From: Syntrophales bacterium
Lineage (GTDB): Bacteria; Desulfobacterota; Syntrophia; Syntrophales; UBA4778
Assembly (NCBI GenBank): GCA_028712885.1
Contig: JAQTPK010000005.1
Location: forward strand, 1 to 64,000
DNA length: 64,000 bases
Direction of reading: 5' to 3'
Shown here one piece after another: positions 14,391 to 49,609 of the stretch. Numbering within the stretch: position 1 is the first letter of the stretch; every line of letters starts with the position of its first letter. The notes beneath the pieces are model-generated. The model saw only the letters and a list, made by a program, of their open reading frames with translations. It did not search any database and was not told the DNA's origin. The position numbers and the translations under genes were made by a program.

Positions 14391-15383
14391 GTGAATGTGA
14401 TCGATCAGGGAGTCGGTAAGATCTTCACAGATCCGGATGCGGATAAGGTGAGAGAATTCTTTCGAAAGAAAAGCCGCAAGCTGGAAAGCAAAGTGATGAG
14501 CGTCAAGGAAGCGGTTACGAAATTTGTAAAAGACGGCGACTACCTGTGCATCGGCGGTTTCGGTGCAAACAGGATCCCTGCTTCAGTATGCCATGAAATT
14601 GTCAGGCAGGGCAGGAAGAACATGGGATTTGCGGGGCATACGTCGACGCACGATTTCCAGATTCTTTGCGCGGGCGAAGTATTCAACAGGCTGGATATCG
14701 CTTATATCGTAGGTCTCGAGGCCCGAGGATTATCGCCAAATGCCAGAAGGTACATGGAAAGCGGGAAGGTGGAAGTTTCGGAGTGGACGAATTACAGCCT
14801 GTCCGTAAGATTTAAAGCTGCTGCCGCGGGCGTGTCCTTCTATCCCTCCAGAAATATCATGGGAACCGATACATTCAAAATGAGCGGGGCAAAAATCATT
14901 GAGTGCCCCTTCACGGGGACGAAATACGCGGCCATGCCGGCGATCTATCCGGACGTGTCCGCAATCCATGTCCACGAAGCGGATATTTACGGCAATTGCC
15001 GCGCCCGGGGCATCACCGTTTCCGATTTCGACGTAGCCAGGGCATCCAAGCGCCTGATCATTACCTGTGAAAGACTGATCTCGAACGAAGAAATCCGCAG
15101 GGATCCGAGCTACACGGTTATCCCCTACTGGTGTGTCGATGCGGTATGCGAGGTCCCGTTCGGAAGCTATCCCGGAAACATGTACGGGGAGTATTTCTCG
15201 GACGAGGAACATCTGAGGGAGTGGCTGAAAGTGGAAGAAAGTCCCGAAGAATTGAAGAAATTTTTGCAGAAGAACATATTCAGCTGCAAGGATCATTTTG
15301 AATATATCGAGAAAAACGGCGGTATGCACAAAATGCAGATGCTCCGGCAGAAAGAACACATGTTCATCGGCGCAAGGGCATAG
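14391..15383 (+). CDS. CoA-transferase family I, subunit A (glutaconate CoA-transferase-like)
   Basis: The 330-residue protein shows the family I alpha-subunit pattern: MSVKEAVTKFVKDGDYLCIGGFGANRIPASVCHEI near the N-terminus and FKMSGAKIIECPFTG in the middle. It resembles glutaconate CoA-transferase subunit A. With the next gene it should move CoA between carboxylic acids; the acid pair is not fixed by sequence. Start GTG 14391 follows a strong AAGGAGGTAAG. The gap to subunit B is 16 bp. A perfect TTGACA lies at 14241 but the -10 is poor. Confidence 0.85.
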   Translation: MNVIDQGVGKIFTDPDADKVREFFRKKSRKLESKVMSVKEAVTKFVKDGDYLCIGGFGANRIPASVCHEIVRQGRKNMGFAGHTSTHDFQILCAGEVFNRLDIAYIVGLEARGLSPNARRYMESGKVEVSEWTNYSLSVRFKAAAAGVSFYPSRNIMGTDTFKMSGAKIIECPFTGTKYAAMPAIYPDVSAIHVHEADIYGNCRARGITVSDFDVARASKRLIITCERLISNEEIRRDPSYTVIPYWCVDAVCEVPFGSYPGNMYGEYFSDEEHLREWLKVEESPEELKKFLQKNIFSCKDHFEYIEKNGGMHKMQMLRQKEHMFIGARA

Positions 15384-15399
15384 GGAGGAGGCATAAAAC

Positions 15400-16170
15400 A
15401 TGGCTGATTACAATGTAATGGAATTAATGATATGCACTGCTGCAAGGGAACTGGAAGACGGGGCATCGATCGTGGTTGGAACCGGAGCCCCGAATGCGGC
15501 GGCGATGCTCGCCCAGAAGACATCGGCCCCCAATCTCGTGATCATGTTCGAGGCGGGCGGGGCCGTCCCGCTTATTCCTGAAATGCCCATCTCGGTCGGC
15601 GATTCCAGGACGACCTGGAAAGCGCTGATGGCGAGCGGTATGTGCGAGATCATGGAAACTGCCTGCAGGGGTATGGTGGATTACACCTTCCTGGGCGGTG
15701 CGCAGATCGACATGTACGGAAATCTGAATTCGACGCGCATCGGGCCGGACCACCAGAAGCCCAAGGTACGCTTCCCCGGAAGCGGAGGCGCAAACGATCT
15801 GGCTTCCTTCTGCTGGAGGATGTTGGTCATGACCCCTCAGGATACAAAAAGATTCGCTGAGAAGGTCAATTTCATCACGTCTCCCGGATGGCTCCAGGGC
15901 GGCAATTCCCGCGCGAAGTCGGGTCTTCCCCTCGGCGCGGGCCCCTATAAGATCATCACGAATATGGCGGTCATGGATTTCGAGCCCGAATCGAAGCGGA
16001 TGAGAATCATCGCTGTCAACCCCGGCTATTCCGAAAAGGACGTGCAGGCCAATTGCGGATTCGAGCTGCTCAAGGCGAAAAAGATTGTGGAAAACAAGCC
16101 GCCTACCAAGCATGAGCTTCAGATTCTCAGGGAGCAGATCGATCCCTACCGATATGTCATCGGAAGATAA
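15400..16170 (+). CDS. CoA-transferase family I, subunit B (glutaconate CoA-transferase-like)
   Basis: The 256-residue beta subunit carries the motif IMFEAGGAVPLIP, whose Glu matches the catalytic residue that forms the glutamyl-CoA thioester in family I. The body contains GGAQIDMYGNLNSTRIG and FPGSGGANDLASF, both typical. Together with subunit A it forms a cytoplasmic heteromer. GGGAGGAGGC precedes the ATG. A strong terminator follows at 16179. In this anaerobe the enzyme could activate fermentation acids; a link to the acyl-CoA cluster at 34-39.6 kb is possible but unproven. Confidence 0.87.
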   Translation: MADYNVMELMICTAARELEDGASIVVGTGAPNAAAMLAQKTSAPNLVIMFEAGGAVPLIPEMPISVGDSRTTWKALMASGMCEIMETACRGMVDYTFLGGAQIDMYGNLNSTRIGPDHQKPKVRFPGSGGANDLASFCWRMLVMTPQDTKRFAEKVNFITSPGWLQGGNSRAKSGLPLGAGPYKIITNMAVMDFEPESKRMRIIAVNPGYSEKDVQANCGFELLKAKKIVENKPPTKHELQILREQIDPYRYVIGR

Positions 16171-25453: not shown

Positions 25454-25794
25454 AAAGTTTCCTTTTTTTGCAACAGAATTGTAAGCAATAAGCGAGCCAG
25501 AACATAAGGCAATGGAATAATGACGGTTTTCAGCATTCGGGAAACAGGAACAAACATTGGAAATGCTCCCGGAGCATAGAAAAAATATTGTTATTACAGC
25601 AATTTTTATGAATCAGCCTGACAACAGGCAAATTGCCCGGCTTTGCCTATGCCGCGAAGCCGGGGCGGGATCCTCTCTTTCGAAAGGCGGAGTGACGGAT
25701 ATTTGGCGTTTCCCGGCGTATTGCCGCCCGGCAGGGGCGTTGTCTTTTCCCGTCCGGCTTGACATCACGGGAAATATATACCTATATTCGCCTC
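25454..25794. other. Divergent intergenic region, no gene seen
   Basis: This 340-bp gap lies between the start of the hybrid kinase (minus) and the BrkB-cNMP gene (plus). The frame from 25557 has no ribosome site or family resemblance. It holds the plus-strand promoter at 25759-25788. A minus-strand promoter for the kinase operon could not be assigned with confidence. Confidence 0.6.
25759..25788 (+). promoter_or_regulatory. Promoter candidate; transcript may be leaderless
   Basis: TTGACA (25759-25764), an 18-bp spacer and TATATT (25783-25788) form a good sigma-70-type promoter. The expected start of transcription, about 7 bases beyond the -10, falls on or beside the ATG at 25795. There is no Shine-Dalgarno upstream of that ATG. 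Confidence 0.55.
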
Positions 25795-27369
25795 ATGACG
25801 GCGGACCGGAAACTCCGAATAAAGCTGGACGGAAAAAGCCTCCTGTACCGCTCAGCTGCTCTCCGGGACATCCTCTCCGATTCATTCGAAAAATTTCAGA
25901 GCAACGGGGATTTCAACCAGGCGGCCGCGATCGCTCTCTATGCTATTCTTTCCGCCATTCCTTTTTTTATCCTGACGCTGTGGATTGCAGGTCTCGTGTT
26001 CGGGCCCGATTCGGGAATGGCCGGCGGCCTTTCCGACACAATCCGCAAATTCCTTCCCTATTTCACCCAGGAGATCGTCGACCAGCTTGGGGAAATTGAA
26101 AAGAAAAAGCAGGTGCTGGGATGGGTGGGCGTCATCACCCTGCTCTGGTCGTCCTCGCTGATCTTCAGCGCCGTGGAGACGTCTTTCGAGATGATCTTCA
26201 GGTCAAAATCCAGAAGAAACATACTCTTCTCGAAAATGATGGCGGTCGCCTTGATTCCGGTGGGATGGCTGATCGGGGCAATCAGCGTGGCGCTTACATA
26301 CATGGCTTCGCTGATCAGGGAATACCCGCTGCTTGCGCAGAGCGGATGGCTGGCCGTCGCCGCGGCGCAGGGGGTGATCATTTCGCACGTCATCCCCTAC
26401 CTGATTACAGTCCTGTTTTTCACTCTGATTTATAAAATCATCCCGGCATCCAGAATATCCTGGGGCAACGCTCTGGCGGCGGGGGCGATATTCTCGCTGC
26501 TGATGGAAATAGCCAAACACGTCTTCACCTGGTACGTGGCCGGCAATACGCAGTATAACGTCATCTATGGATCGCTCCAGGCCGTTGTCATCCTCGTGCT
26601 CTGGGTTTTCTACGTTGCGCTTATCCTGCTTTTCTGCGCCGAAATCATTTCTTCGTACCAGAGGCGGGGCCTGATCCTGATCGAGAAGGCATTCGTCGGG
26701 ACGGACCGGGCGCGCAGGAGCGTGCATGAGAGGATATTCCGGAAATTCGGCCGGGTTTACCGGAAAGACGAATACATTTTCAGGGAGGGAGATACGAGCC
26801 GGGAGATCTATTACATTCTCCTGGGAGAAGTCGCCGTGGAAAAGGGAATGGGGAGATTCAGAAAAGTCCTGACGGAAATGGGGCCGGGCCAGCACTTCGG
26901 TGAAATGGCCGCGCTTGCCCGTGAACCGCGGACCGCCTCCATCCGTGCGGTTCAGGACAGCGAGATAGCCGTTATCGACCCCGATGTGTTTCTCATGCTG
27001 CTGAGCCGCAGCGAAGCGGTTTCAACACTCGTCTTGCGGGAATTTTCCCGGCGCATGAAAAACACGAGCAACAGACTTGAGGAGCTGACCGGATACCTTG
27101 TCGCCGCGGGCGCGATAATTTATTTTTTCCGCCACTGGCCGCTTCCTGCCGGCGCCGAGCCGATTCAGGAGCTGATGCGGATCACCGGGAGGGAAGAGGA
27201 AGAGATCAGAAAAGTTCTGGGCGCTCTTGCCCGGGCGGGAGTCGTCCGGTACGAAAATGGAACAGTTCTGGAATTCGACCGGGAAGCGGCCTGGAGCGTG
27301 GCGAGAAAGGGGCTTTTCCCCGAGGGTGATCGCGGACTGAGCGAGGAGGCGGACGCAGCCTCAATTTAA
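25795..27369 (+). CDS. YihY/BrkB-family membrane protein fused to a cyclic-nucleotide-binding domain
   Basis: The 524-residue protein has an N-terminal YihY/BrkB domain of about six helices (AAAIALYAILSAIPFFILTLW, WVGVITLLWSSSLIFSAVE, VIYGSLQAVVILVLWVFYVALILLFCAEI). A cNMP/CRP-like domain follows (about 320-440), with GDTSREIYYILLGEV, GPGQHFGEMAAL and the phosphate-binding-cassette-like EPRTASIRA. A C-terminal winged-helix-like tail (ITGREEEEIRKVLGALARAGVV) completes it. YihY proteins are not RNase BN and their role is unsettled. The fusion suggests gating by a nucleotide or other ligand. TTG 25759 in the track is the -35 box, so ATG 25795 is preferred. Confidence 0.83.
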   Translation: MTADRKLRIKLDGKSLLYRSAALRDILSDSFEKFQSNGDFNQAAAIALYAILSAIPFFILTLWIAGLVFGPDSGMAGGLSDTIRKFLPYFTQEIVDQLGEIEKKKQVLGWVGVITLLWSSSLIFSAVETSFEMIFRSKSRRNILFSKMMAVALIPVGWLIGAISVALTYMASLIREYPLLAQSGWLAVAAAQGVIISHVIPYLITVLFFTLIYKIIPASRISWGNALAAGAIFSLLMEIAKHVFTWYVAGNTQYNVIYGSLQAVVILVLWVFYVALILLFCAEIISSYQRRGLILIEKAFVGTDRARRSVHERIFRKFGRVYRKDEYIFREGDTSREIYYILLGEVAVEKGMGRFRKVLTEMGPGQHFGEMAALAREPRTASIRAVQDSEIAVIDPDVFLMLLSRSEAVSTLVLREFSRRMKNTSNRLEELTGYLVAAGAIIYFFRHWPLPAGAEPIQELMRITGREEEEIRKVLGALARAGVVRYENGTVLEFDREAAWSVARKGLFPEGDRGLSEEADAASI

Positions 27370-30517: not shown

Positions 30518-31723
30518 GTGGAAAATTATTCTCTGAAGAAAATGAAAAATTCTCTTTTTCGTGAAGAGATAAGAATTTATGAGGCACGTACCGGAGGCGT
30601 AACGCGTAAAAAAAGGTATAAAATTATAGATGTCTTTTCAGGAGCAGGAGGAATGACGCTTGGTTTTTCCAAGCGTTTTGGCCATGTTTTTGAGCCAATT
30701 TGGGCAAACGATTTTGATGAGGATTGTGTGCGGACATACAATGCAAACTTTGGAAATCATTGTATACATGGAGATATACAAGATATTCTTACTGATTCAC
30801 GTGCGGAAATTCCGGAAGCCGACGTGGTCATAGGCGGTCCGCCATGTCAAGGTTTCAGTCTATTAAATAAGAAGCGTTATTGTGACCAAAGGAAAGAACT
30901 GTGGCGTCCTTATCTCGAAGTCGTGAAAAGGTCAAATGCAAGAATTTTTGTGATGGAGAATGTGCCGCAAATTATCGGGTCTTTTGAGCATGGCGAAATC
31001 TTAGGAATGGCGAATTCGATGGGATTTAAAGTTTGTGGGGGCATCCTCAGTGCCGCGGATTACGGTGTTCCCCAAACGAGGAAACGCGCGTTTATAATAG
31101 GGTGCAAATTCTTTAATCCGGTACTTGTTTTCCCGCCCCGCCGCACCCATTACGATCCTTCCAAAAAACCCCCAAAAGAATTGGAACTGTACGACGGCAG
31201 TAATGAGTTTTTGCCGTCAGTGGGTAAGTGGAAAACAGTGCGTGACGCAATTGGCGATTTACCGCCGCCGGTCGGCACTGGAATAAGGGATGAACCACCT
31301 CCGCTGGATTTACATTTCGGCAGGTCTCCAACTCCGGACAGTTTTTCCCGGTACAAGGCTATCCCGGGGGAGGGCATGAATCGTTTTGACCTCCAAAGAC
31401 GTGCTCCTGAACTTACTCCCCCATGCTGGATAAGGAAGAAAACGGGGGGTACGGATCTTTTTGGTAGACTATGGTGGGATCGGCCGTCGTTTACTATTCG
31501 GACTGAATTCTTCAAGCCTGAAAAGGGTAGATATTTACATCCTAAGCAACATCGCCCTATAACCCACAGGGAGGCCGCGCGCCTCCAATCATTTCCGGAT
31601 GATTTTGTCTTTAAAGGTTCAAAAATAGAGGTGGCCAGGCAAATTGGCAATGCCGTTCCGCCTCTGCTTGCTGCCCGTGTTGCGGATATTGTATTCCAAC
31701 TTTTTTCACGTGAGAATAAATGA
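30518..31723 (+). CDS. DNA (cytosine-5-)-methyltransferase
   Basis: The 401-residue enzyme carries the m5C methyltransferase motifs in order: IDVFSGAGGMTLGF (I, SAM binding), GGPPCQGFS (IV, catalytic Cys), MENVPQ (VI), and QIGNAVPP (X). Its target-recognition region lies between about 260 and 340; the recognition sequence cannot be read from it. GTG 30518 follows AAGGGCGG. The stop overlaps the Vsr start (ATGA). DNA here is visibly more AT-rich than the flanks, consistent with acquisition by transfer. It would protect host DNA from the HNH nuclease encoded two genes on. Confidence 0.95.
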   Translation: MENYSLKKMKNSLFREEIRIYEARTGGVTRKKRYKIIDVFSGAGGMTLGFSKRFGHVFEPIWANDFDEDCVRTYNANFGNHCIHGDIQDILTDSRAEIPEADVVIGGPPCQGFSLLNKKRYCDQRKELWRPYLEVVKRSNARIFVMENVPQIIGSFEHGEILGMANSMGFKVCGGILSAADYGVPQTRKRAFIIGCKFFNPVLVFPPRRTHYDPSKKPPKELELYDGSNEFLPSVGKWKTVRDAIGDLPPPVGTGIRDEPPPLDLHFGRSPTPDSFSRYKAIPGEGMNRFDLQRRAPELTPPCWIRKKTGGTDLFGRLWWDRPSFTIRTEFFKPEKGRYLHPKQHRPITHREAARLQSFPDDFVFKGSKIEVARQIGNAVPPLLAARVADIVFQLFSRENK

Positions 31724-32142
31724 CTGACGTTTTCACGAAAGAAAAGCGAAAATGGATAATGAGCCGTGTTGGAGGAGTCAATACGAAGCCGGAAAAGATT
31801 GTGAGGTCATTTCTTCATGCAATGGGGCATCGATTTCGTCTTCATAGGGCGGACCTGCCAGGTAAACCGGACATAATTTTACCTAAGCACAGAAAAATTA
31901 TATTTGTGCACGGATGCTTTTGGCACGGCCATGCCAAATGCCATAGATCAAAAAGACCGTCTACTAATGAAATATTTTGGAATAGTAAAATAGATAGGAC
32001 CATTAGAAGAGATAAAAGGGTTCTTAGTGATTTAAAGAAGATCGGATGGAAAGTTCTGATAATCTGGGAATGCGAAACTAAGAAAACAGAATTGATGGTC
32101 AGAAAACTGGAGAATTTTATAGATGAAAAAAAAGTCCGCTGA
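31720..32142 (+). CDS. vsr: Very short patch repair endonuclease (Vsr)
   Basis: The 140-residue protein has the Vsr landmarks: RSFLHAMGHRFRLHRADLPGKPDIILP (catalytic Asp in PDIIL), FVHGCFWHGHAKC (zinc/His region) and WKVLIIWECE. Vsr nicks beside T:G mismatches that arise when 5-methylcytosine deaminates, thereby limiting mutation caused by the partner methyltransferase. It overlaps the methyltransferase by 4 bp and the nuclease gene by 20 bp, so the three are one transcription and translation unit. Confidence 0.93.
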   Translation: MTDVFTKEKRKWIMSRVGGVNTKPEKIVRSFLHAMGHRFRLHRADLPGKPDIILPKHRKIIFVHGCFWHGHAKCHRSKRPSTNEIFWNSKIDRTIRRDKRVLSDLKKIGWKVLIIWECETKKTELMVRKLENFIDEKKVR

Positions 32143-33043
32143 GCAGGTAAGGGATAGTATTGAGGTTCTGATTAAAAACTTCGAGATCGAGCTAAGATCA
32201 GAGGAATTACGTCAGAAGGTGAAGGCGTTAATACCTGTGTTCAAGAATCTGAGGGAACTTGGAATGTCGTTAATTCCGGAAGAATATACTTCATCTGCTA
32301 GAACACGCATCCTTTTCTATTTTCAAAAATTTCCTATGTCGATAATAGATGGAGATGAAATACTGGTCATTTCGGGTATTCAGGAATACGCCCGTAGAAT
32401 ACGTGAATTAAGAGTTCAGTTTGGCTGGTCGATAGCAAGCGGGATAACGATGAAAGAAATGAGAAAAGAGAATGAATCGGATATACCAGACGGAATGGCT
32501 GAAATGAAACCGGACCAATATGTGCTCCTATCTCTTGCGCAAGATCGTGATGCTGCGCACCGTTGGAACAGCGCTAATTCGATTCAAAAAGAGAGTATTT
32601 CCGTCAGAGATAAGATTTTGAAGTACTTCCGCGCGAATGTCGGGAAACCAATTACAGGCGAAGAACTGCGATATGTGGCGGGGAATAAAACTGAATGGGC
32701 AAGGCGCACTAGGGAACTAAGAACAGAATATGGCTGGCCGGTTGCATCAAAGGCGACCGGTCAACCTGATTTGCCTATCGGTACATATATTTTGCAGGCT
32801 GATCGCCAAAGCCCTGAACACGACAGGAAGATACCTGATGATGTGAGAAGAGAGGTGTTGAGAAAAGACGGCTACAGTTGCCGCTCCTGTAAATGGTCGT
32901 ACACCGAATGGAATCCTTCAGATCCTCGAAATTTGGAACTGCATCATATAAAGCATCATGTCCAAGGAGGAGATAACCGAGAAGAAAATTTGGCTACTCT
33001 CTGTTCCGTATGTCATGATAAAGAGCATCGCAGAAAAAATTGA
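32123..33043 (+). CDS. HNH restriction endonuclease with duplicated N-terminal DNA-binding-like domain
   Basis: The 306-residue protein ends in a complete HNH module: VLRKDGYSCRSCKW, ELHHIKHHVQGGDNREENLATLC and CHDKEH, with two CxxC zinc pairs. The first about 200 residues contain two related units, ARTRILFYFQKF with ARRIRELRVQFGWSIAS and VRDKILKYFRAN with ARRTRELRTEYGWPVAS, resembling paired winged helices. Position behind an m5C methyltransferase and Vsr makes it the likely cutting enzyme of a type II system. Its ATG lies inside vsr; the Shine-Dalgarno is GGAGAA. Confidence 0.8.
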   Translation: MKKKSAEQVRDSIEVLIKNFEIELRSEELRQKVKALIPVFKNLRELGMSLIPEEYTSSARTRILFYFQKFPMSIIDGDEILVISGIQEYARRIRELRVQFGWSIASGITMKEMRKENESDIPDGMAEMKPDQYVLLSLAQDRDAAHRWNSANSIQKESISVRDKILKYFRANVGKPITGEELRYVAGNKTEWARRTRELRTEYGWPVASKATGQPDLPIGTYILQADRQSPEHDRKIPDDVRREVLRKDGYSCRSCKWSYTEWNPSDPRNLELHHIKHHVQGGDNREENLATLCSVCHDKEHRRKN

Positions 33044-34343: not shown

Positions 34344-35528
34344 TTACTTGCCGCTCCTGAAATCGTCTCTCATGAGCTCACGGGCGATGATCATTCTGCG
34401 GATTTCCGACGTACCGGCGCCGATTTCCCACAGTTTCTGGTCCAGGAAGTGGCGGGTAACCGCGTATTCCTGGCAGTAGCCGTAGCCGCCGTGAATCTGG
34501 ATCGCATCGAGACCGATCTTGGTACCCATCTCGCCGCAGTACAGCAGCGCCGCCGCCGCCATGCGGTCGAGGTCGGTCCCCTTACCGCCCGACTTGTTCT
34601 CCAGCGTGTCGCAGTAAGCCGCCGCGCTGTAAGCCATCCACTTGGAGGCGAGATAGCCGGTATACATGTTGGCGATCTTTTCCTGAATCGACTGGAAGGA
34701 GATGATCGGCTTGCCGAACTGGACTCTTTCCTTCGCGTACTTCAGGGAGAGCTCGAGGCAGGACCTCTGGGAACCCAGGGTGCAGCCGCTGAGGGTGATT
34801 CTCTCGGTGCAGAGACCGCTCGTCAGAACGGCGACGCCCTTATTGAGTCCGCCTACGAGGTTTTCCTCGGGCAGTTCCATGTCGTCGAACGTGATGAGGC
34901 CGGTGGGGGAAGTCCTCATGCCCCATTTCTTGATCTTCTCGACGGAGAAGCCCTTCTGTTTCTTGGGATAGAAGAAGAAGGTGGAAATTCCGTGGGGTCC
35001 CTTGTCGGGATCGGTCTTGGCGTAGAACAGCATGAAATCGGCAACCGGGCCGTTCGTGATGAAAATCTTGCTGCCGTTGATGATGTACTTGTCGCCCTTC
35101 TTTACGGCGCGGGTAGCCATGCTCATGGCGTCCGATCCGGCGTTCGGCTCCGTGATCCCGAGGCAGCCGATGTACTCGCCGGTGCAGGATTTCGGAAGAA
35201 TTTCCATTTTGAACTTCTCGGGTGCGTTTCTCCGGAAGTTGTCGAAAGCAAGCGTCTGGCTCGCGCCGACCGTCATTGACAGGGCGTTGCTGACGCGGGC
35301 GATCGTCTCGTACACGAGCAGCGTCTCGATGTAGCCGAGCGCGGCGCCGCCATACTTCTCCTCAAATACGATGCCGTTCACGCCGAGATTGCCGAGCTCC
35401 TTGAACAGGGTAGGCGGCATTTCGTCCACTTCGTAGGCGTGTTCCATCTGGGGCTCCAGCCAGGCCGTCGCCCACTTATATACGCTGTCCTCCAACATTC
35501 TTTGTTCTTCACTGAATTCAAAATTCAT
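34344..35528 (-). CDS. Acyl-CoA dehydrogenase, isovaleryl-CoA dehydrogenase-like
   Basis: The 394-residue flavoenzyme has the family motifs CLGITEPNAGSD, INGSKIFITNG and YGYCQEYAVTRHFLD. The Glu usually found near the C-terminus in YEGT is replaced (WEIGAGTSEIRR), and a Glu stands in TERITLSGCTLG. In isovaleryl-CoA dehydrogenase the catalytic base is in that second place, so branched-chain acyl-CoA is the likely substrate (inference). Electrons would pass to ETF, which is not encoded here. GGGAGGGAAAA precedes the ATG. It is the last gene of a five-gene cluster. Confidence 0.88.
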   Translation of the reverse strand: MNFEFSEEQRMLEDSVYKWATAWLEPQMEHAYEVDEMPPTLFKELGNLGVNGIVFEEKYGGAALGYIETLLVYETIARVSNALSMTVGASQTLAFDNFRRNAPEKFKMEILPKSCTGEYIGCLGITEPNAGSDAMSMATRAVKKGDKYIINGSKIFITNGPVADFMLFYAKTDPDKGPHGISTFFFYPKKQKGFSVEKIKKWGMRTSPTGLITFDDMELPEENLVGGLNKGVAVLTSGLCTERITLSGCTLGSQRSCLELSLKYAKERVQFGKPIISFQSIQEKIANMYTGYLASKWMAYSAAAYCDTLENKSGGKGTDLDRMAAAALLYCGEMGTKIGLDAIQIHGGYGYCQEYAVTRHFLDQKLWEIGAGTSEIRRMIIARELMRDDFRSGK

Positions 35529-35573: not shown

Positions 35574-35789
35574 CTACTCGAGGACGATCAATACCTGGTT
35601 GGTATCGACTTTCTGCTCCTCGGAAACCTTTATCTCCGCAACCTTGCCGCCGGAGGGGGCGCAGATCGGGTTTTCCATCTTCATGGCCTCGAGGATGATC
35701 ATCTCCTCGTCGGCTTTCACCTGATCTCCGACCTGTACGAGAATCTCCGTGATCGTTCCCGGCATGGGCGCTACGACATTGACGCTCAT
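35574..35789 (-). CDS. Stand-alone biotin carboxyl carrier protein
   Basis: The 71-residue protein is a single biotinyl/lipoyl domain: APMPGTITEILVQVGDQV, the biotinylated Lys in EAMKMEN, and GGKVAEIKVSE. It would carry carboxyl-biotin to or from the carboxyltransferase at the head of the cluster. In common methylcrotonyl-CoA carboxylases this domain is fused to the biotin carboxylase subunit, here it is free and no carboxylase gene is near. CAAAGGAGGTAG precedes the ATG. Confidence 0.92.
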   Translation of the reverse strand: MSVNVVAPMPGTITEILVQVGDQVKADEEMIILEAMKMENPICAPSGGKVAEIKVSEEQKVDTNQVLIVLE

Positions 35790-35872: not shown

Positions 35873-37054
35873 TTATTTATTCCAGGCTGCAGGTCCCCAC
35901 GGATCCGGCAGAATCGCCTTCGGCGACCATTCGGTCGGAGCCTTCTGCCCCGGCTTCTCCCCGAGCTTCTGTATCAGCTTGCTCAGGCCGGGACGTCCGA
36001 ATTCCGGATGCCCTTCCTTCAGGGTGCGGCCGTTGTAAACCGCTTCGGAGCGGAGCCGGCGGCCGATGGTTTTCTCCATCTTCTCCCCAAGCCACAGGAC
36101 GCGGTCCACGTCGTATCCGTGCTCGATTCCCAGCTCGTCGATCTGGACAAGCAGGTCCTCGAACGTGATCAGGCCGACGTACCGCGGATCCTTGTAATAG
36201 TATTCGCCCGTCCCCCGGACCGGACAATCGTCGAGGAAGTTGGCCGGCTGTCCGCCGAGGCCGCCCAGCGTTCCTTCGAAGCGGGTGATTCCCGCCTGCA
36301 GGGCCGCCAGGACCGAGGCCGACGCCACGCGCTTCGTCTCGTGCAGGTGGCAGAGGTGCGCCTCCGGATTCGGCATGGCGTCGAGGACCATGGAGAAGTA
36401 CCGGTAAACCTGGGCCGCGGAAGCAGACCCGTCGTGGTCCGCGTGTTCTATATCATGCGCTCCGATCTGGAACCAGCGCTTTGTGAATTCCACGGCGTCT
36501 TCCAATTTGGTCGCGCCGGTGATCGGGCTTCCCCAGATCGTGCTGACCGTTCCGCACATCTTCATCCCGACGTCCCGGGCTTTCTGGATGCACCGCTCGG
36601 CTTCCTTCCAGTAGACCGACAGCGTCGTTCCGGAATTGGCGAAATGATGCTCGGGATCGGTGGATACCATCATGAGAATGCGGTCGGGGCCGATCCCCTT
36701 TTTCCTCAACTCGATAGCCCGGTCCACCGCCGGCTCCCTGATAGAGACCGCCGTCATGCAGATTTCGTCATATTTGATCCCCGCGCGCTCGCAACGCTTC
36801 TTGAAAGAGTCGCTGCGCAGGGCCGCCAGCACTTCTTCGGCATCCCTGAACTGCGGAATTCCCGCCGGGTTCCCAAGGTTTGTAACCTCGATTTCCATGG
36901 CGCCCGCCAGTATCATTTCCTGGGCGTAGAATATCTTCGCCGCCGTGGAAATAAATTTTTCCTCGTGCTGAAACCCGTCGCGGACGGTTATGTCGCCGAG
37001 GGTTACTTTCTTCGGCATCCGTGGAAATATTTTCCAGAGATCGTATTCCGTCAT
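35873..37054 (-). CDS. HMG-CoA lyase-like (HMGL/pyruvate carboxyltransferase superfamily) protein lacking the catalytic Cys
   Basis: The 393-residue TIM-barrel protein keeps the N-terminal LGDITVRDGFQHEEKF (Arg-Asp metal/substrate pair) and a CHLHETKR metal site equivalent to HxH of the family. In HMG-CoA lyase the G-loop reads GLGGCPY and is followed by GNxATED. Here it is TLGGLGGQPANF, so the Cys is Gln and the Asn motif is replaced by a longer insertion (VRGTGEYYYKDPRYVGLITFED). The activity may differ from HMG-CoA cleavage. GGAGGATAATTT precedes the ATG. It sits third in the cluster. Confidence 0.8.
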   Translation of the reverse strand: MTEYDLWKIFPRMPKKVTLGDITVRDGFQHEEKFISTAAKIFYAQEMILAGAMEIEVTNLGNPAGIPQFRDAEEVLAALRSDSFKKRCERAGIKYDEICMTAVSIREPAVDRAIELRKKGIGPDRILMMVSTDPEHHFANSGTTLSVYWKEAERCIQKARDVGMKMCGTVSTIWGSPITGATKLEDAVEFTKRWFQIGAHDIEHADHDGSASAAQVYRYFSMVLDAMPNPEAHLCHLHETKRVASASVLAALQAGITRFEGTLGGLGGQPANFLDDCPVRGTGEYYYKDPRYVGLITFEDLLVQIDELGIEHGYDVDRVLWLGEKMEKTIGRRLRSEAVYNGRTLKEGHPEFGRPGLSKLIQKLGEKPGQKAPTEWSPKAILPDPWGPAAWNK

Positions 37055-37094: not shown

Positions 37095-37895
37095 CTACTC
37101 ACCCTTGAACACCGGTTTGCGTTTTTCGGCAAACGCCGCGAGCGCTTCCAGCCGGTCTTTCGTCGGGATGGTTACTTCATACGCTTTGGACTCGAGCGGC
37201 AGGGCTACGCCGAGGCTCGCTTCGCTTCCGTAATTGATGGCGAACTTGGCCTGCGCGACTCCGATTGGGCCGTTCTTCGCGATTTCCCTGGCCAGTTCGA
37301 GCGCCGCGTCCATCAGCTTGTCGGGTTCGACGACCTTGCTGACGAGCCCGATGTCGAGCGCGGTCTGCGCATTGAATCTACGCGCCGTGAAGATCAGCTC
37401 CTTCGCCTTCGCGACTCCGACTACGCGGACCAGGCGCTGCGTGCCGCCCGCGCCCGGGATAATCGCCAGGCTCGTTTCCGTGAGGCCCATCAGGACGTTG
37501 CTGGACGCAACCCGGAGGTCGCAGGCGAGAGCGAGCTCCGTGCCGCCGCCGAAGGCGAAGCCGTTGATGGCGGCGATAACGGGAACACGCACCTGCTCGA
37601 CGGCCGTGAAGGTGTTCCGGATCGTGAAGATGAACCGGCGCACCTGATCGGGCGTAAGCGTCCTGCGCTCCTTCAGGTCCGCTCCGGTGGAGAAGGACCA
37701 TTTCTTGGGATCGTCACCCGCCTTGGAGCCGGTGATGACGATGCAGCGCAGGTCCATGTCGAAATTGGCTTCCCGGATCACGTCCGCGAGCTTGGCCAGC
37801 AGGTCGAAATTGAAGCAGTTCATGGCATCCGGCCTGTTCAGCGTCAGGATGAGGATGCCGTCATCCGTTCTTTCCTGCAAAAGGATATCTGCCAT
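37095..37895 (-). CDS. Enoyl-CoA hydratase/isomerase family protein (crotonase)
   Basis: The 266-residue crotonase retains both catalytic Glu residues of true hydratases: one in FGGGTELALACDL and one in MGLTETSLAIIPGAGGTQRL. The oxyanion-hole segment is SFSTGADLKE. In the context of an isovaleryl-CoA dehydrogenase-like enzyme and a methylcrotonyl-CoA carboxylase-like subunit, hydration of 3-methylglutaconyl-CoA is a reasonable inference. AAGGAGGAAATC precedes the ATG. It lies 25 bp after the carboxyltransferase gene. Confidence 0.88.
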   Translation of the reverse strand: MADILLQERTDDGILILTLNRPDAMNCFNFDLLAKLADVIREANFDMDLRCIVITGSKAGDDPKKWSFSTGADLKERRTLTPDQVRRFIFTIRNTFTAVEQVRVPVIAAINGFAFGGGTELALACDLRVASSNVLMGLTETSLAIIPGAGGTQRLVRVVGVAKAKELIFTARRFNAQTALDIGLVSKVVEPDKLMDAALELAREIAKNGPIGVAQAKFAINYGSEASLGVALPLESKAYEVTIPTKDRLEALAAFAEKRKPVFKGE

Positions 37896-37920: not shown

Positions 37921-39597
37921 TTATACTTTCAGATCGCCCCAATCCGTCCTGGCGATCGGAGTCCGGTAGCAGAGCTCGAGGGATCTCGCCAGTTTATTGC
38001 GAGCTTCGCTGAACGCGATTACGCCGTCATGGAACAGGAGCGCGCCGGTGAGGAACGGATGGCCTTCGGCGTCGTAGCGGTCCCTCATCATCTGCCGGAA
38101 TTTGGCCATTTCCTCTTCATTGACCTGCTGTCCCTTGTCGATGATGTTCTTTCTTCGGACGGTCTCCACGATGAATCCCGCGGTTTCGCCGGACATGACC
38201 GTGGTGCGCCCCCTCATGTTGGTGAAGCAGAATACCGGGCGGAAAGCCCTGCCGCACATGCCGTAGTTGGCCGCGCCGTGGTCGGGGCCGATGACGTACT
38301 GAATCTTCGGGACGTTCAGGACGGAGCATGTCCGGACCATGTCGGAGCCGTACTTGCCGATGCCGCCCCATTCCTCGGATTTGCCGACCATGTAGCCGGG
38401 TGAACCCTGGAGGAACATGACCGGAAGGTTGGAGTTCCCGCAGCGGATCATCCACTCCGTCGCCTTGCGGGCGGCCTCGATGTAGATAACGCCGTTTCCG
38501 CTCGAAGCGATCACGCCGATCGGCATGCCTTTCATCCACATCTTCCCCGCCACGATCGTCTCGCCGCGGTTCAGGCCGTACGTCGGTTTGTATTCATGGA
38601 AATAGCTGTCGTCGGCGAGGCACTTCAGGGTTTCCTTGATGTTGATGGCGTTATACGTGTTGGCGGGCGACATCCGCATCATTTCCTTGTAGTCGAATTT
38701 GGGCTCCGCGGGCTTTTTCAGCTCGCAGTAAAGGCTCTGGGAGGGCTCGAATTCGATGATGTCGCGCAGCTTCTTGATCCCTTCATCCTGGCTCTTTACG
38801 ATGTGATCGCAGCCGCCGGAATGCTGGGTGTGGACATAGGCGCCGCCGAGGTCCTCGGGGGAAACCGTCTCGCCGATTGCCGATTTGACCATGGGGGGGC
38901 CGGCCAGGAATGCGAAGGCGAGCTTCTCGATCATGATCGACTCGGAGGCCAGATAGACGATGTACGCGCCGCCCGCGGTGTTTCCGCCGGTTGAAAGCGT
39001 GTACTGCTTGATGCCCATGGCTGACATGCGGCACATGTTATAGAACATGCTGCCGAAATGGCCGTCGTCAGCGAAGCAGCCGAGCTGGAGCGGAAGGTTG
39101 ATTCCGCCGGAGTCGGCGATATAGACGCAGGGGAGGCGAAGGCGCTCGGCGACCGCTTGGGCCCGCATGTGCTTCTTCAGGGTGATCGGGAAATAGGTGC
39201 CGGCAGCGTAGCGGTTTTCGTTCGCGAAGATCATGCAGTCCTTGCCGTGGATCTTGCCCACGCCCGTTACCATGCCGCCGCCGGGAATATGCCCGCGTTT
39301 TTCGGATTCATAAATCTCGCCGCCGTAGAGTTTGACTTTGCCGATGTTGTACCCGGCATCGAGACCTAATTCGAAGAACTCGGAGCCCGGATCGATCAGG
39401 GCGCTGATCATGTCTCTCATCGGTTTTTTGCCCTGCTTCGCGAGGCGCTTGATCTGATCTTCGCCGCCGATATTGTAGGCCTCTTCCCGGTGCTTCAGCA
39501 GGAGTGTGTCCTCTGCTTCCCAGTGCTTCAGGTTTTTCTCCTTTTCCTTGGCGAGCCGCTCGGCCCGGGTCAATCTCTCTTTCTTTTCCTCTGACAT
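37921..39597 (-). CDS. Biotin-dependent acyl-CoA carboxyltransferase (beta) subunit
   Basis: From ATG 39597 the protein is 558 residues, with the crotonase-like double domain of carboxyltransferases: a first oxyanion region STGGNTAGGAYIVYLASE, AFLAGPPMVKSAIGETVSPEDLGGA, and a second DHGAANYGMCGRAFRPVF with RTTVMSGETAGFIVETV. These resemble the methylcrotonyl/geranyl-CoA carboxylase beta subunit more than the propionyl one, though the glutaconyl-CoA decarboxylase alpha subunit is an alternative. The track's 39798 start adds unlikely residues; GGAGGAAGGAGGAG before 39597 settles it. It heads the cluster and has no biotin carboxylase beside it. Confidence 0.85.
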   Translation of the reverse strand: MSEEKKERLTRAERLAKEKEKNLKHWEAEDTLLLKHREEAYNIGGEDQIKRLAKQGKKPMRDMISALIDPGSEFFELGLDAGYNIGKVKLYGGEIYESEKRGHIPGGGMVTGVGKIHGKDCMIFANENRYAAGTYFPITLKKHMRAQAVAERLRLPCVYIADSGGINLPLQLGCFADDGHFGSMFYNMCRMSAMGIKQYTLSTGGNTAGGAYIVYLASESIMIEKLAFAFLAGPPMVKSAIGETVSPEDLGGAYVHTQHSGGCDHIVKSQDEGIKKLRDIIEFEPSQSLYCELKKPAEPKFDYKEMMRMSPANTYNAINIKETLKCLADDSYFHEYKPTYGLNRGETIVAGKMWMKGMPIGVIASSGNGVIYIEAARKATEWMIRCGNSNLPVMFLQGSPGYMVGKSEEWGGIGKYGSDMVRTCSVLNVPKIQYVIGPDHGAANYGMCGRAFRPVFCFTNMRGRTTVMSGETAGFIVETVRRKNIIDKGQQVNEEEMAKFRQMMRDRYDAEGHPFLTGALLFHDGVIAFSEARNKLARSLELCYRTPIARTDWGDLKV

Positions 39598-39881
39598 TTC
39601 TCTCCTCCTTCCTCCTTTTATCTGAAGTGGTTGGCGTTTGATTTCCGAAATCGCTTGGAACGCGGACACTACGGAGAAGGCTCTTCCGGAAAGGAAGGCC
39701 GTGCGCAACAAACGAACGAAATCCGATTTCTCCCGTGCGAAACGGCTGCATCGAAACGATTCTCCCCGGACGTTCCGGGGGATCGACTCACGCCGCAACC
39801 CCTATCGGAAGATTGTAATAGCATATTTGGGCTTGGATGTGGATTAAAAATGGCAGCTTTTTTGACCAGTTCATGAGAATG

Positions 39882-48691: not shown

Positions 48692-49609
48692 ATGAAAATA
48701 AAGTTGCCCGGACAGGTGGAGATCCAGGAGGTGGTCCTGAGGGATGGAATCCAGAACGAGAAGAAGATAATTCCCACGCAGGCAAAGATCGATCTCATCG
48801 GGAAGCTTGTCTCGTGCGGGGTACGCAGAATAGAGGTGTCTTCGTTCGTCAATCCCCGTCTCGTGCCCCAGATGGCCGACGCAGAGGACCTCTGGTCGGG
48901 TCTTGTCCGATACAAGGACGTCATTCTCTCGGCGCTGATACTGAGCAGGGGGGGAATGGAAAGGGCCGTGAAGTGCGGGGTCGGACGGGTGGGGATCTTT
49001 GTCTCCGCAAGCGAAACCCATTCGATGAGGAACAGCCGCCGCACGGTCGGGGAAGCTCTCTCCGAGGCGCTTATGCTGATATCCGAGGCGAAATCGCAGG
49101 GCGTCTCCGTTCGGGCGGGAGTAATGAATGCCTTCGGATGCGCTTACGAAGGAGTTGTTCCGGCCGATAAAGTGATCGAACTCTGCCGCCGGCTCTGCGG
49201 CGCCGGTCCCGACGAACTTTGCCTTGCCGATACTTCCGGGCTGGGCGATCCCCGTCTGATCAGGGATACAATATCGAGACTGAGAAAAGTAAGGATGAAA
49301 ACCGCCTTGCCCGGGCTTTCCCTCCATTTGCATAATACGAGGGACCGGGGACTTGCCAACCTCTATGCCGCACTGGAGGAAGGGGTTTGTATATTCGACG
49401 CGTCGCTGGGAGGGCTGGGCGGCTGTCCTTTTATAGAAGGCGCGCGGGGAAATATCGCGACGGAAGACGCTGTTTCCGTGCTTCACGACATGGGGATCGC
49501 GACGGGAATAGATCTCGAACGGCTTGTTCAGACCAGCCTGGAATTCGAGAAGATACTGGGGAAACCTTTTCCTGCCATGGTGCCGCACCTGGGGCCGTGC
49601 CGCTCTTGA
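48692..49609 (+). CDS. Hydroxymethylglutaryl-CoA lyase
   Basis: The 305-residue enzyme shows all HMG-CoA lyase signatures: EVVLRDGIQNEKK (Arg-Asp), SLHLHNTRDRG (HxH metal ligands), and the G-loop SLGGLGGCPFIEGARGNIATED, with the catalytic Cys and the following Asn motif. It splits HMG-CoA to acetyl-CoA and acetoacetate. It is a true family member, unlike the variant at 35873. It is single and 9 kb away from the acyl-CoA cluster, but could supply the last step of leucine or isovalerate breakdown. Confidence 0.9.
   Translation: MKIKLPGQVEIQEVVLRDGIQNEKKIIPTQAKIDLIGKLVSCGVRRIEVSSFVNPRLVPQMADAEDLWSGLVRYKDVILSALILSRGGMERAVKCGVGRVGIFVSASETHSMRNSRRTVGEALSEALMLISEAKSQGVSVRAGVMNAFGCAYEGVVPADKVIELCRRLCGAGPDELCLADTSGLGDPRLIRDTISRLRKVRMKTALPGLSLHLHNTRDRGLANLYAALEEGVCIFDASLGGLGGCPFIEGARGNIATEDAVSVLHDMGIATGIDLERLVQTSLEFEKILGKPFPAMVPHLGPCRS

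Follow-up and report, generated by a model that had tools for sequence, protein, structure and literature searches.

An HMG-CoA-lyase-like protein with glutamine in place of the catalytic cysteine in a leucine/isovalerate operon of a Syntrophales bacterium

The window analyzed here is a stretch of 64,000 nucleotides from a Syntrophales bacterium (contig JAQTPK010000005.1), and its relevant features are listed in Table 1. On the reverse strand we found the gene of an HMG-CoA-lyase-like protein, here called HMGLQ, which is preceded on the same strand by the genes of a carboxyltransferase subunit (CT) and an enoyl-CoA hydratase and followed by those of a biotin carrier and a dehydrogenase. The initial annotation had mentioned a biotin carrier encoded next to the lyase-like gene and this gene was indeed present; it occupies the same place in many Syntrophales operons. 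The CT reading frame is open to 39798, with homology beginning near residue 64, and its product is closer to methylcrotonyl-CoA carboxylase than to geranyl-CoA carboxylase (372 vs 267 bits). In the dehydrogenase, the Ala in GAGT and the Glu in ERITLSG form what we take to be the catalytic layout of isovaleryl-CoA dehydrogenase. The window operon holds the full set of dehydrogenase, methylcrotonyl-type CT, hydratase, biotin carrier and lyase, and the neighborhood of HMGLQ is a leucine/isovalerate operon. A biotin carboxylase gene was not found in the operon; the genome has a single one, next to a PycB-like gene on a different contig. The order CT, hydratase, HMGLQ, biotin carrier recurs in many Syntrophales. 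In some of these relatives a canonical lyase gene follows directly; in the window the canonical paralogue is 12 kb apart from HMGLQ. Relatives of the CoA-transferase pair of the window directly adjoin the HMGLQ operon at two loci (L026 and L069), and activation of isovalerate or acetoacetate is a possible function of this pair. Elsewhere on the forward strand of the window, genes for a cytosine-5 DNA methyltransferase, a Vsr endonuclease and an HNH endonuclease lie in a row (30518-33043) and probably constitute a restriction-modification locus, and the gene at 25759-27369 encodes a BrkB-type membrane protein fused to a cyclic-nucleotide-binding domain.

Table 1. Features of the HMGLQ operon and of related genes in the window
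Feature	Position	Strand	Basis
HMGLQ, HMG-CoA-lyase-like, 393 aa, Gln269 for catalytic Cys	35873..37054	-	ORF, homology
Gln269 codon (position of human Cys266)	36248..36250	-	fixed in 127/127 copies
G-loop insertion region, residues 271-289, ANFLDDCPVRGTGEYYYKD	36188..36244	-	alignment, model
Leu295 codon (position of metal ligand Asn275)	36170..36172	-	alignment; ligand identity PMC6941031
Biotin carrier protein, 71 aa, MKM biotinylation motif	35574..35789	-	PF00364
Enoyl-CoA hydratase (ECH); solved relatives include human methylglutaconyl-CoA hydratase (AUH, 1hzd)	37095..37895	-	
Carboxyltransferase subunit (CT); nearest solved relatives methylcrotonyl-CoA carboxylase beta	37921..39609	-	
Isovaleryl-CoA dehydrogenase	34344..35528	-	five best solved relatives all isovaleryl-CoA dehydrogenases
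Canonical HMG-CoA lyase paralogue; Cys, Asn, GNIATED intact	48692..49609	+	NF004283, 301.6 bits
CoA-transferase subunit pair (14391-15383 and 15400-16170)	14391..16170	+	

The HMGLQ reading frame is intact, starts with ATG and ends exactly at the coordinates given. Its product matched PF00682 (HMGL-like) with 78 bits, and a sequence search of solved structures retrieved HMG-CoA lyases only. For human HMG-CoA lyase, Arg41, Glu72, Tyr167 and Cys266 are critical residues, and Asp42, Asn275, His233 and His235 are the metal ligands (PMC6941031). Of these four catalytic residues and four metal ligands, two and one, respectively, are altered in HMGLQ. The loop reads GLGGQPANFLDDCPVRGTGEYYYKDPRYVGLITFED in HMGLQ and GLGGCPFIEGARGNIATED at the same site of the canonical lyase of the window; GLGGQP stands where canonical lyases have GLGGCP, and the initially annotated exchange of the catalytic Cys for Gln is correct. 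Trp174 occupies the site of the usual Tyr (human Tyr167), and an H-A-D-H-D motif is also present. Between QP and VGLITFED there is a Tyr-rich insertion of about 17 residues. This insertion had been described as replacing the GNxATED motif; the insertion is real, but the motif is not simply replaced, since VGLITFED, with Leu at the site of the Asn ligand, is still recognizable behind it. Also as annotated, the Arg-Asp pair (Arg25 and Asp26 in VRDG) and His-x-His (His236 and His238 in HLH) are retained. Glu56 is kept as well, and Arg25 and Glu56, both invariant, are the equivalents of human Arg41 and Glu72. With the curated HMG-CoA lyase model NF004283 (cut-off 246 bits), HMGLQ scored 124.3 bits and its relatives were also far below the cut-off, whereas the paralogue, which had been called an intact lyase, exceeded it and is canonical by this measure.

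Gln was found at the Cys position in all 127 homologous copies, and because of this fixation the exchange is not a quirk of the window protein. A family tree had been proposed as a check of whether the exchange is fixed in cluster-associated homologues, and this turned out to be the case; none of the orthologues has the Cys intact, and the Cys-bearing operon neighbors are canonical paralogues. In the tree (four canonical lyases as outgroup) HMGLQ is split from the canonical enzymes with full support, and its relatives form one clade in the Desulfobacterota, the carriers of which include by name Syntrophaceae, Smithellaceae, Desulfobacteraceae, Desulfosarcina widdelii and D. alkanivorans. Arg25, Glu56, Asp206, His236 and His238 are invariant in all 127 copies, and Asp26 is kept in all but six, which have Glu. 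Asp26, His236 and His238 are all kept in the window protein and in 116 of 116 close copies. Leu at the Asn275 position and the YYY motif are present in 124 of 124 main-clade copies (at least 50% identity to HMGLQ). Simple gene decay is ruled out by the complete fixation. That HMGLQ is catalytically inactive and supports the pathway in a structural or regulatory role might be suggested by the loss of Cys, Asn and Tyr, but the invariant residues, the equally fixed new motifs and the 45 Desulfobacterales genomes in which no other candidate for an HMG-CoA lyase was found make this very improbable.

The copies with Glu for the metal-ligand Asp belong to a subgroup near 60% identity, in which six of eight copies carry it. 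In D. alkanivorans, this branch (L144:8106-12110, L145:7656-8735; REG) has its own set of CT, hydratase, HMGLQ and biotin carrier together with two AMP-dependent CoA ligases, and a near-identical second HMGLQ copy is located 19 kb off. Three distant relatives (31-32% identity; L042:7319-8314, L043:6318-7277, L149:7605-8591) have Gln and the loop insertion and retain the Asn ligand; their neighbors are a thiolase and CoA ligases (L043), two short-chain dehydrogenases (L042) and an enoyl-CoA hydratase (L149). The genome of the window contains a second HMGLQ (80% identical) on a short contig, where another hydratase and another biotin carrier accompany it. Other Syntrophales copies (L051, L052, L084-L086, L088, L091), which are 78-80% identical, have no CT, hydratase or biotin carrier nearby.

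The AlphaFold2 model of HMGLQ had a mean pLDDT of 86.9, and residues 271-288 of the insertion (pLDDT below 50) are flexible in the model. In a Foldseek search with this model, HMG-CoA lyases ranked top (TM 0.89-0.93 by target length), and the transcarboxylase 5S subunit reached 0.48. The initial annotation had considered a metal-dependent Claisen-type or a transcarboxylase reaction, perhaps with a carboxyl group accepted from the neighboring biotin carrier. In its most explicit form, this idea makes HMGLQ an analogue of 5S, a biotin-linked transcarboxylase or decarboxylase subunit that would load or unload the carrier. The adjacent carrier and CT are reminiscent of the 12S/5S/1.3S transcarboxylase, and three genomes (G065, G077, G081) carry a methylcrotonyl-type CT despite the fact that no biotin carboxylase domain was found in them with two Pfam models. 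However, family models of 5S, OadA and PycB gave no HMGLQ match at E <= 0.001, and in an alignment which is weak and anchored on His-x-His, the carbamylated Lys205 of PycB falls on the invariant Ala205 of HMGLQ, i.e. there would be no carbamyl-lysine. Moreover, roughly half of the well-flanked loci have no CT and most have no biotin carrier, and true 5S-like proteins, as judged from long frames with both HMGL-like and biotin-carrier matches, are encoded elsewhere in such genomes. On the strength of family models, structure search and lysine alignment we reject the transcarboxylase reading for HMGLQ itself and consider a 5S-like function extremely improbable. Acceptance of a carboxyl group from the carrier is likewise unsupported (Ala205 for Lys, the low TM value, many loci without carrier or CT), and what stands of the earlier proposal is a metal-dependent enzyme of the Claisen type whose active site is altered. 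Carboxylation in the three CT-bearing genomes just named may draw on a 5S-type transcarboxylase.

As the best explanation, to which we give somewhat better than even chances, we suggest that HMGLQ is the C-C-cleaving lyase of an anaerobic isovalerate (leucine) pathway and represents a divergent clade of HMG-CoA lyases. Isovaleryl-CoA would be oxidized to 3-methylcrotonyl-CoA by the dehydrogenase, carboxylated to 3-methylglutaconyl-CoA by CT and the biotin carrier, hydrated to HMG-CoA by the hydratase and cleaved to acetyl-CoA and acetoacetate by HMGLQ. Arg25, Asp26, Glu56, His236 and His238 would still hold the metal and preserve the geometry for enolate formation. The usual Cys, short loop, Asn ligand and Tyr would have given way to Gln269, a long G-loop rich in Tyr, Leu295, Trp174 and the H-A-D-H-D motif. 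Since the change is fixed in more than 100 related copies, HMGLQ probably runs the standard reaction with an altered active site. Isovalerate degradation by carboxylation and a lyase has been inferred for Syntrophales before (PMC7382037). Against this explanation, it has to be considered that the residues most critical in the human enzyme (Cys266, Tyr167) and the ligand Asn275 are replaced, that HMGLQ scores far below the curated cut-off, and that a coexisting canonical lyase, sometimes in the same operon, looks redundant. The literature search yielded nothing usable on mutagenesis of the catalytic Cys.

Published expression data are available for the gene cluster of an orthologue. In Desulfococcus multivorans DSM 2059, HMGLQ (76% identity) is encoded at 3.210 Mb beside CT, and the locus also encodes a hydratase, a dehydrogenase, regulators and an acetoacetate-CoA ligase, the last of which clearly exceeds the curated cut-off for this enzyme; the canonical lyases of this genome are located at 0.12 and 1.31 Mb. 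According to the published study (PMC5109826), the isovalerate cluster of this bacterium lies at 3.20 Mbp, and AcsA6, EchA2, Mcc and HmgL were formed exclusively in 3-methylbutanoate-adapted cells. Going by location, HmgL is almost certainly HMGLQ, and AcsA6 would be the acetoacetate-CoA ligase.

The distribution of the genes was explored by direct matching in 171 Desulfobacterales genomes, for which a completeness of at least 95% had been requested; absence from a draft genome can reflect an assembly gap, and the D. widdelii genome is complete. HMGLQ was present in 116 of the 171 genomes (relatedness ignored). In 62 it was accompanied by CT, and a canonical lyase was found in 27 of these and was missing in 35. 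The other 54, with no detectable methylcrotonyl-type CT, speak against HMG-CoA as general substrate; 44 of them have a canonical lyase and 10 do not. HMGLQ is thus the only lyase candidate for HMG-CoA in the 35 CT-bearing genomes that lack the canonical enzyme, and where CT is present the context favors HMG-CoA as substrate. A role as mere isozyme of the canonical lyase is weakened by the many genomes without the latter. Among 63 well-flanked loci, an acetoacetate-CoA ligase gene was found at 11 of 31 CT-bearing and at 0 of 32 CT-free loci (p = 1.4e-4, relatedness ignored). The ligase is confined to CT-bearing loci, and therefore acetoacetate, which HMG-CoA lyase also yields, is the probable product there.

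A different reaction has to be weighed for the remaining loci. HMGLQ might be an unrecognized 3-hydroxyisovaleryl-CoA lyase, which splits the hydration product, without prior carboxylation, into acetone and acetyl-CoA or catalyzes the reverse condensation, so that isovalerate would be degraded without biotin-dependent carboxylation and CT would mark an alternative branch in some lineages. We regard this as unlikely, but worth taking seriously. It would account for the lost active-site residues and for the many Desulfobacteria that have a dehydrogenase-hydratase-HMGLQ set without CT, the natural substrate of which would then be 3-hydroxyisovaleryl-CoA; the missing ligase at the CT-free loci fits as well. 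Screening with two Pfam models detected no biotin carboxylase domain in G060, G065, G076, G077 and G081. In G060, which is the complete genome of D. widdelii, a methylcrotonyl-type CT is missing as well, and because neither is present, this bacterium seems unable to carboxylate its way from isovalerate to HMG-CoA. Related sulfate reducers metabolize acetone and induce an uncharacterized HMGL-like protein on it (PMC8084838); such acetone-induced proteins (DebiaDRAFT_00007, Ga0122881_105210) would fit this proposal if they belonged to the HMGLQ clade. In the tree, copies with and without a linked CT are intermingled (at least 13 forced changes), which rules out a CT-specific HMGLQ subclade. Both kinds of copies may therefore share one chemistry, and HMGLQ may handle both substrates. 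On the other hand, acetone formation would leave the 35 CT-bearing genomes without canonical lyase also without any HMG-CoA lyase, and our literature search found no acetone-forming 3-hydroxyisovaleryl-CoA lyase. The dehydrogenases at the Desulfobacteria loci, that of the D. multivorans cluster included, have the common Glu layout and not that of isovaleryl-CoA dehydrogenase, which makes it less certain what acyl substrate is used at CT-free loci. Genes for IcmF and a thiolase, an isobutyrate set, adjoin several of these loci.

Most Syntrophales genomes with HMGLQ also hold a canonical lyase, and at 13 of the 63 loci overall it is located in the same operon. A geranyl-CoA-carboxylase-type route uses analogous enzymes, and a division of labor is conceivable in which HMGLQ cleaves larger 3-hydroxy-3-alkylglutaryl-CoA esters, e.g. 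from isoprenoid acids, and the canonical lyase takes HMG-CoA. The presence of both genes in one operon in some Syntrophales would fit, but the dehydrogenase of the window is of the isovaleryl-CoA type, CT is nearer to the methylcrotonyl-CoA enzyme, and among the substrates tested the D. multivorans cluster was isovalerate-specific (PMC5109826). We therefore consider this division improbable.

If HMGLQ cleaves HMG-CoA, a widespread lineage does without a cysteine listed as critical, and the mechanism has to be reconsidered. Should 3-hydroxyisovaleryl-CoA be the substrate instead, HMGLQ would supply a missing anaerobic route from isovalerate to acetone. The curated HMG-CoA lyase model fails to reach this clade.

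Among known systems, the HmgL of the D. multivorans cluster bears a name that rests on annotation only, and the passages of PMC5109826 that were consulted do not address its lost Cys. With HMG-CoA lyase (EC 4.1.3.4; human 2cw6, Bacillus 1ydo, Acinetobacter 6nds) HMGLQ shares the TIM-barrel, Arg-Asp, Glu, His-x-His, the position of the G-loop and the place in leucine catabolism. In HMGLQ, however, Cys266, Asn275 and Tyr167 are exchanged for Gln, Leu and Trp, respectively, the G-loop is longer by about 17 residues, a C-terminal extension is present, and the identity is about 25%. Its likeness to transcarboxylase 5S, PycB and OadA consists in the superfamily and the link to a biotin carrier, whereas carbamyl-lysine and family-model match are lacking and the structural match is much poorer. 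In aerobic leucine degradation, the liu operon (LiuA-E) combines isovaleryl-CoA dehydrogenase, carboxyltransferase, hydratase and lyase. The same four kinds of enzymes are found together in the HMGLQ operon, which in contrast has no biotin carboxylase, encodes the biotin carrier as a protein of its own (71 aa) where the liu operon has a subunit that combines biotin carboxylase and carrier, and is further distinguished by its altered lyase.
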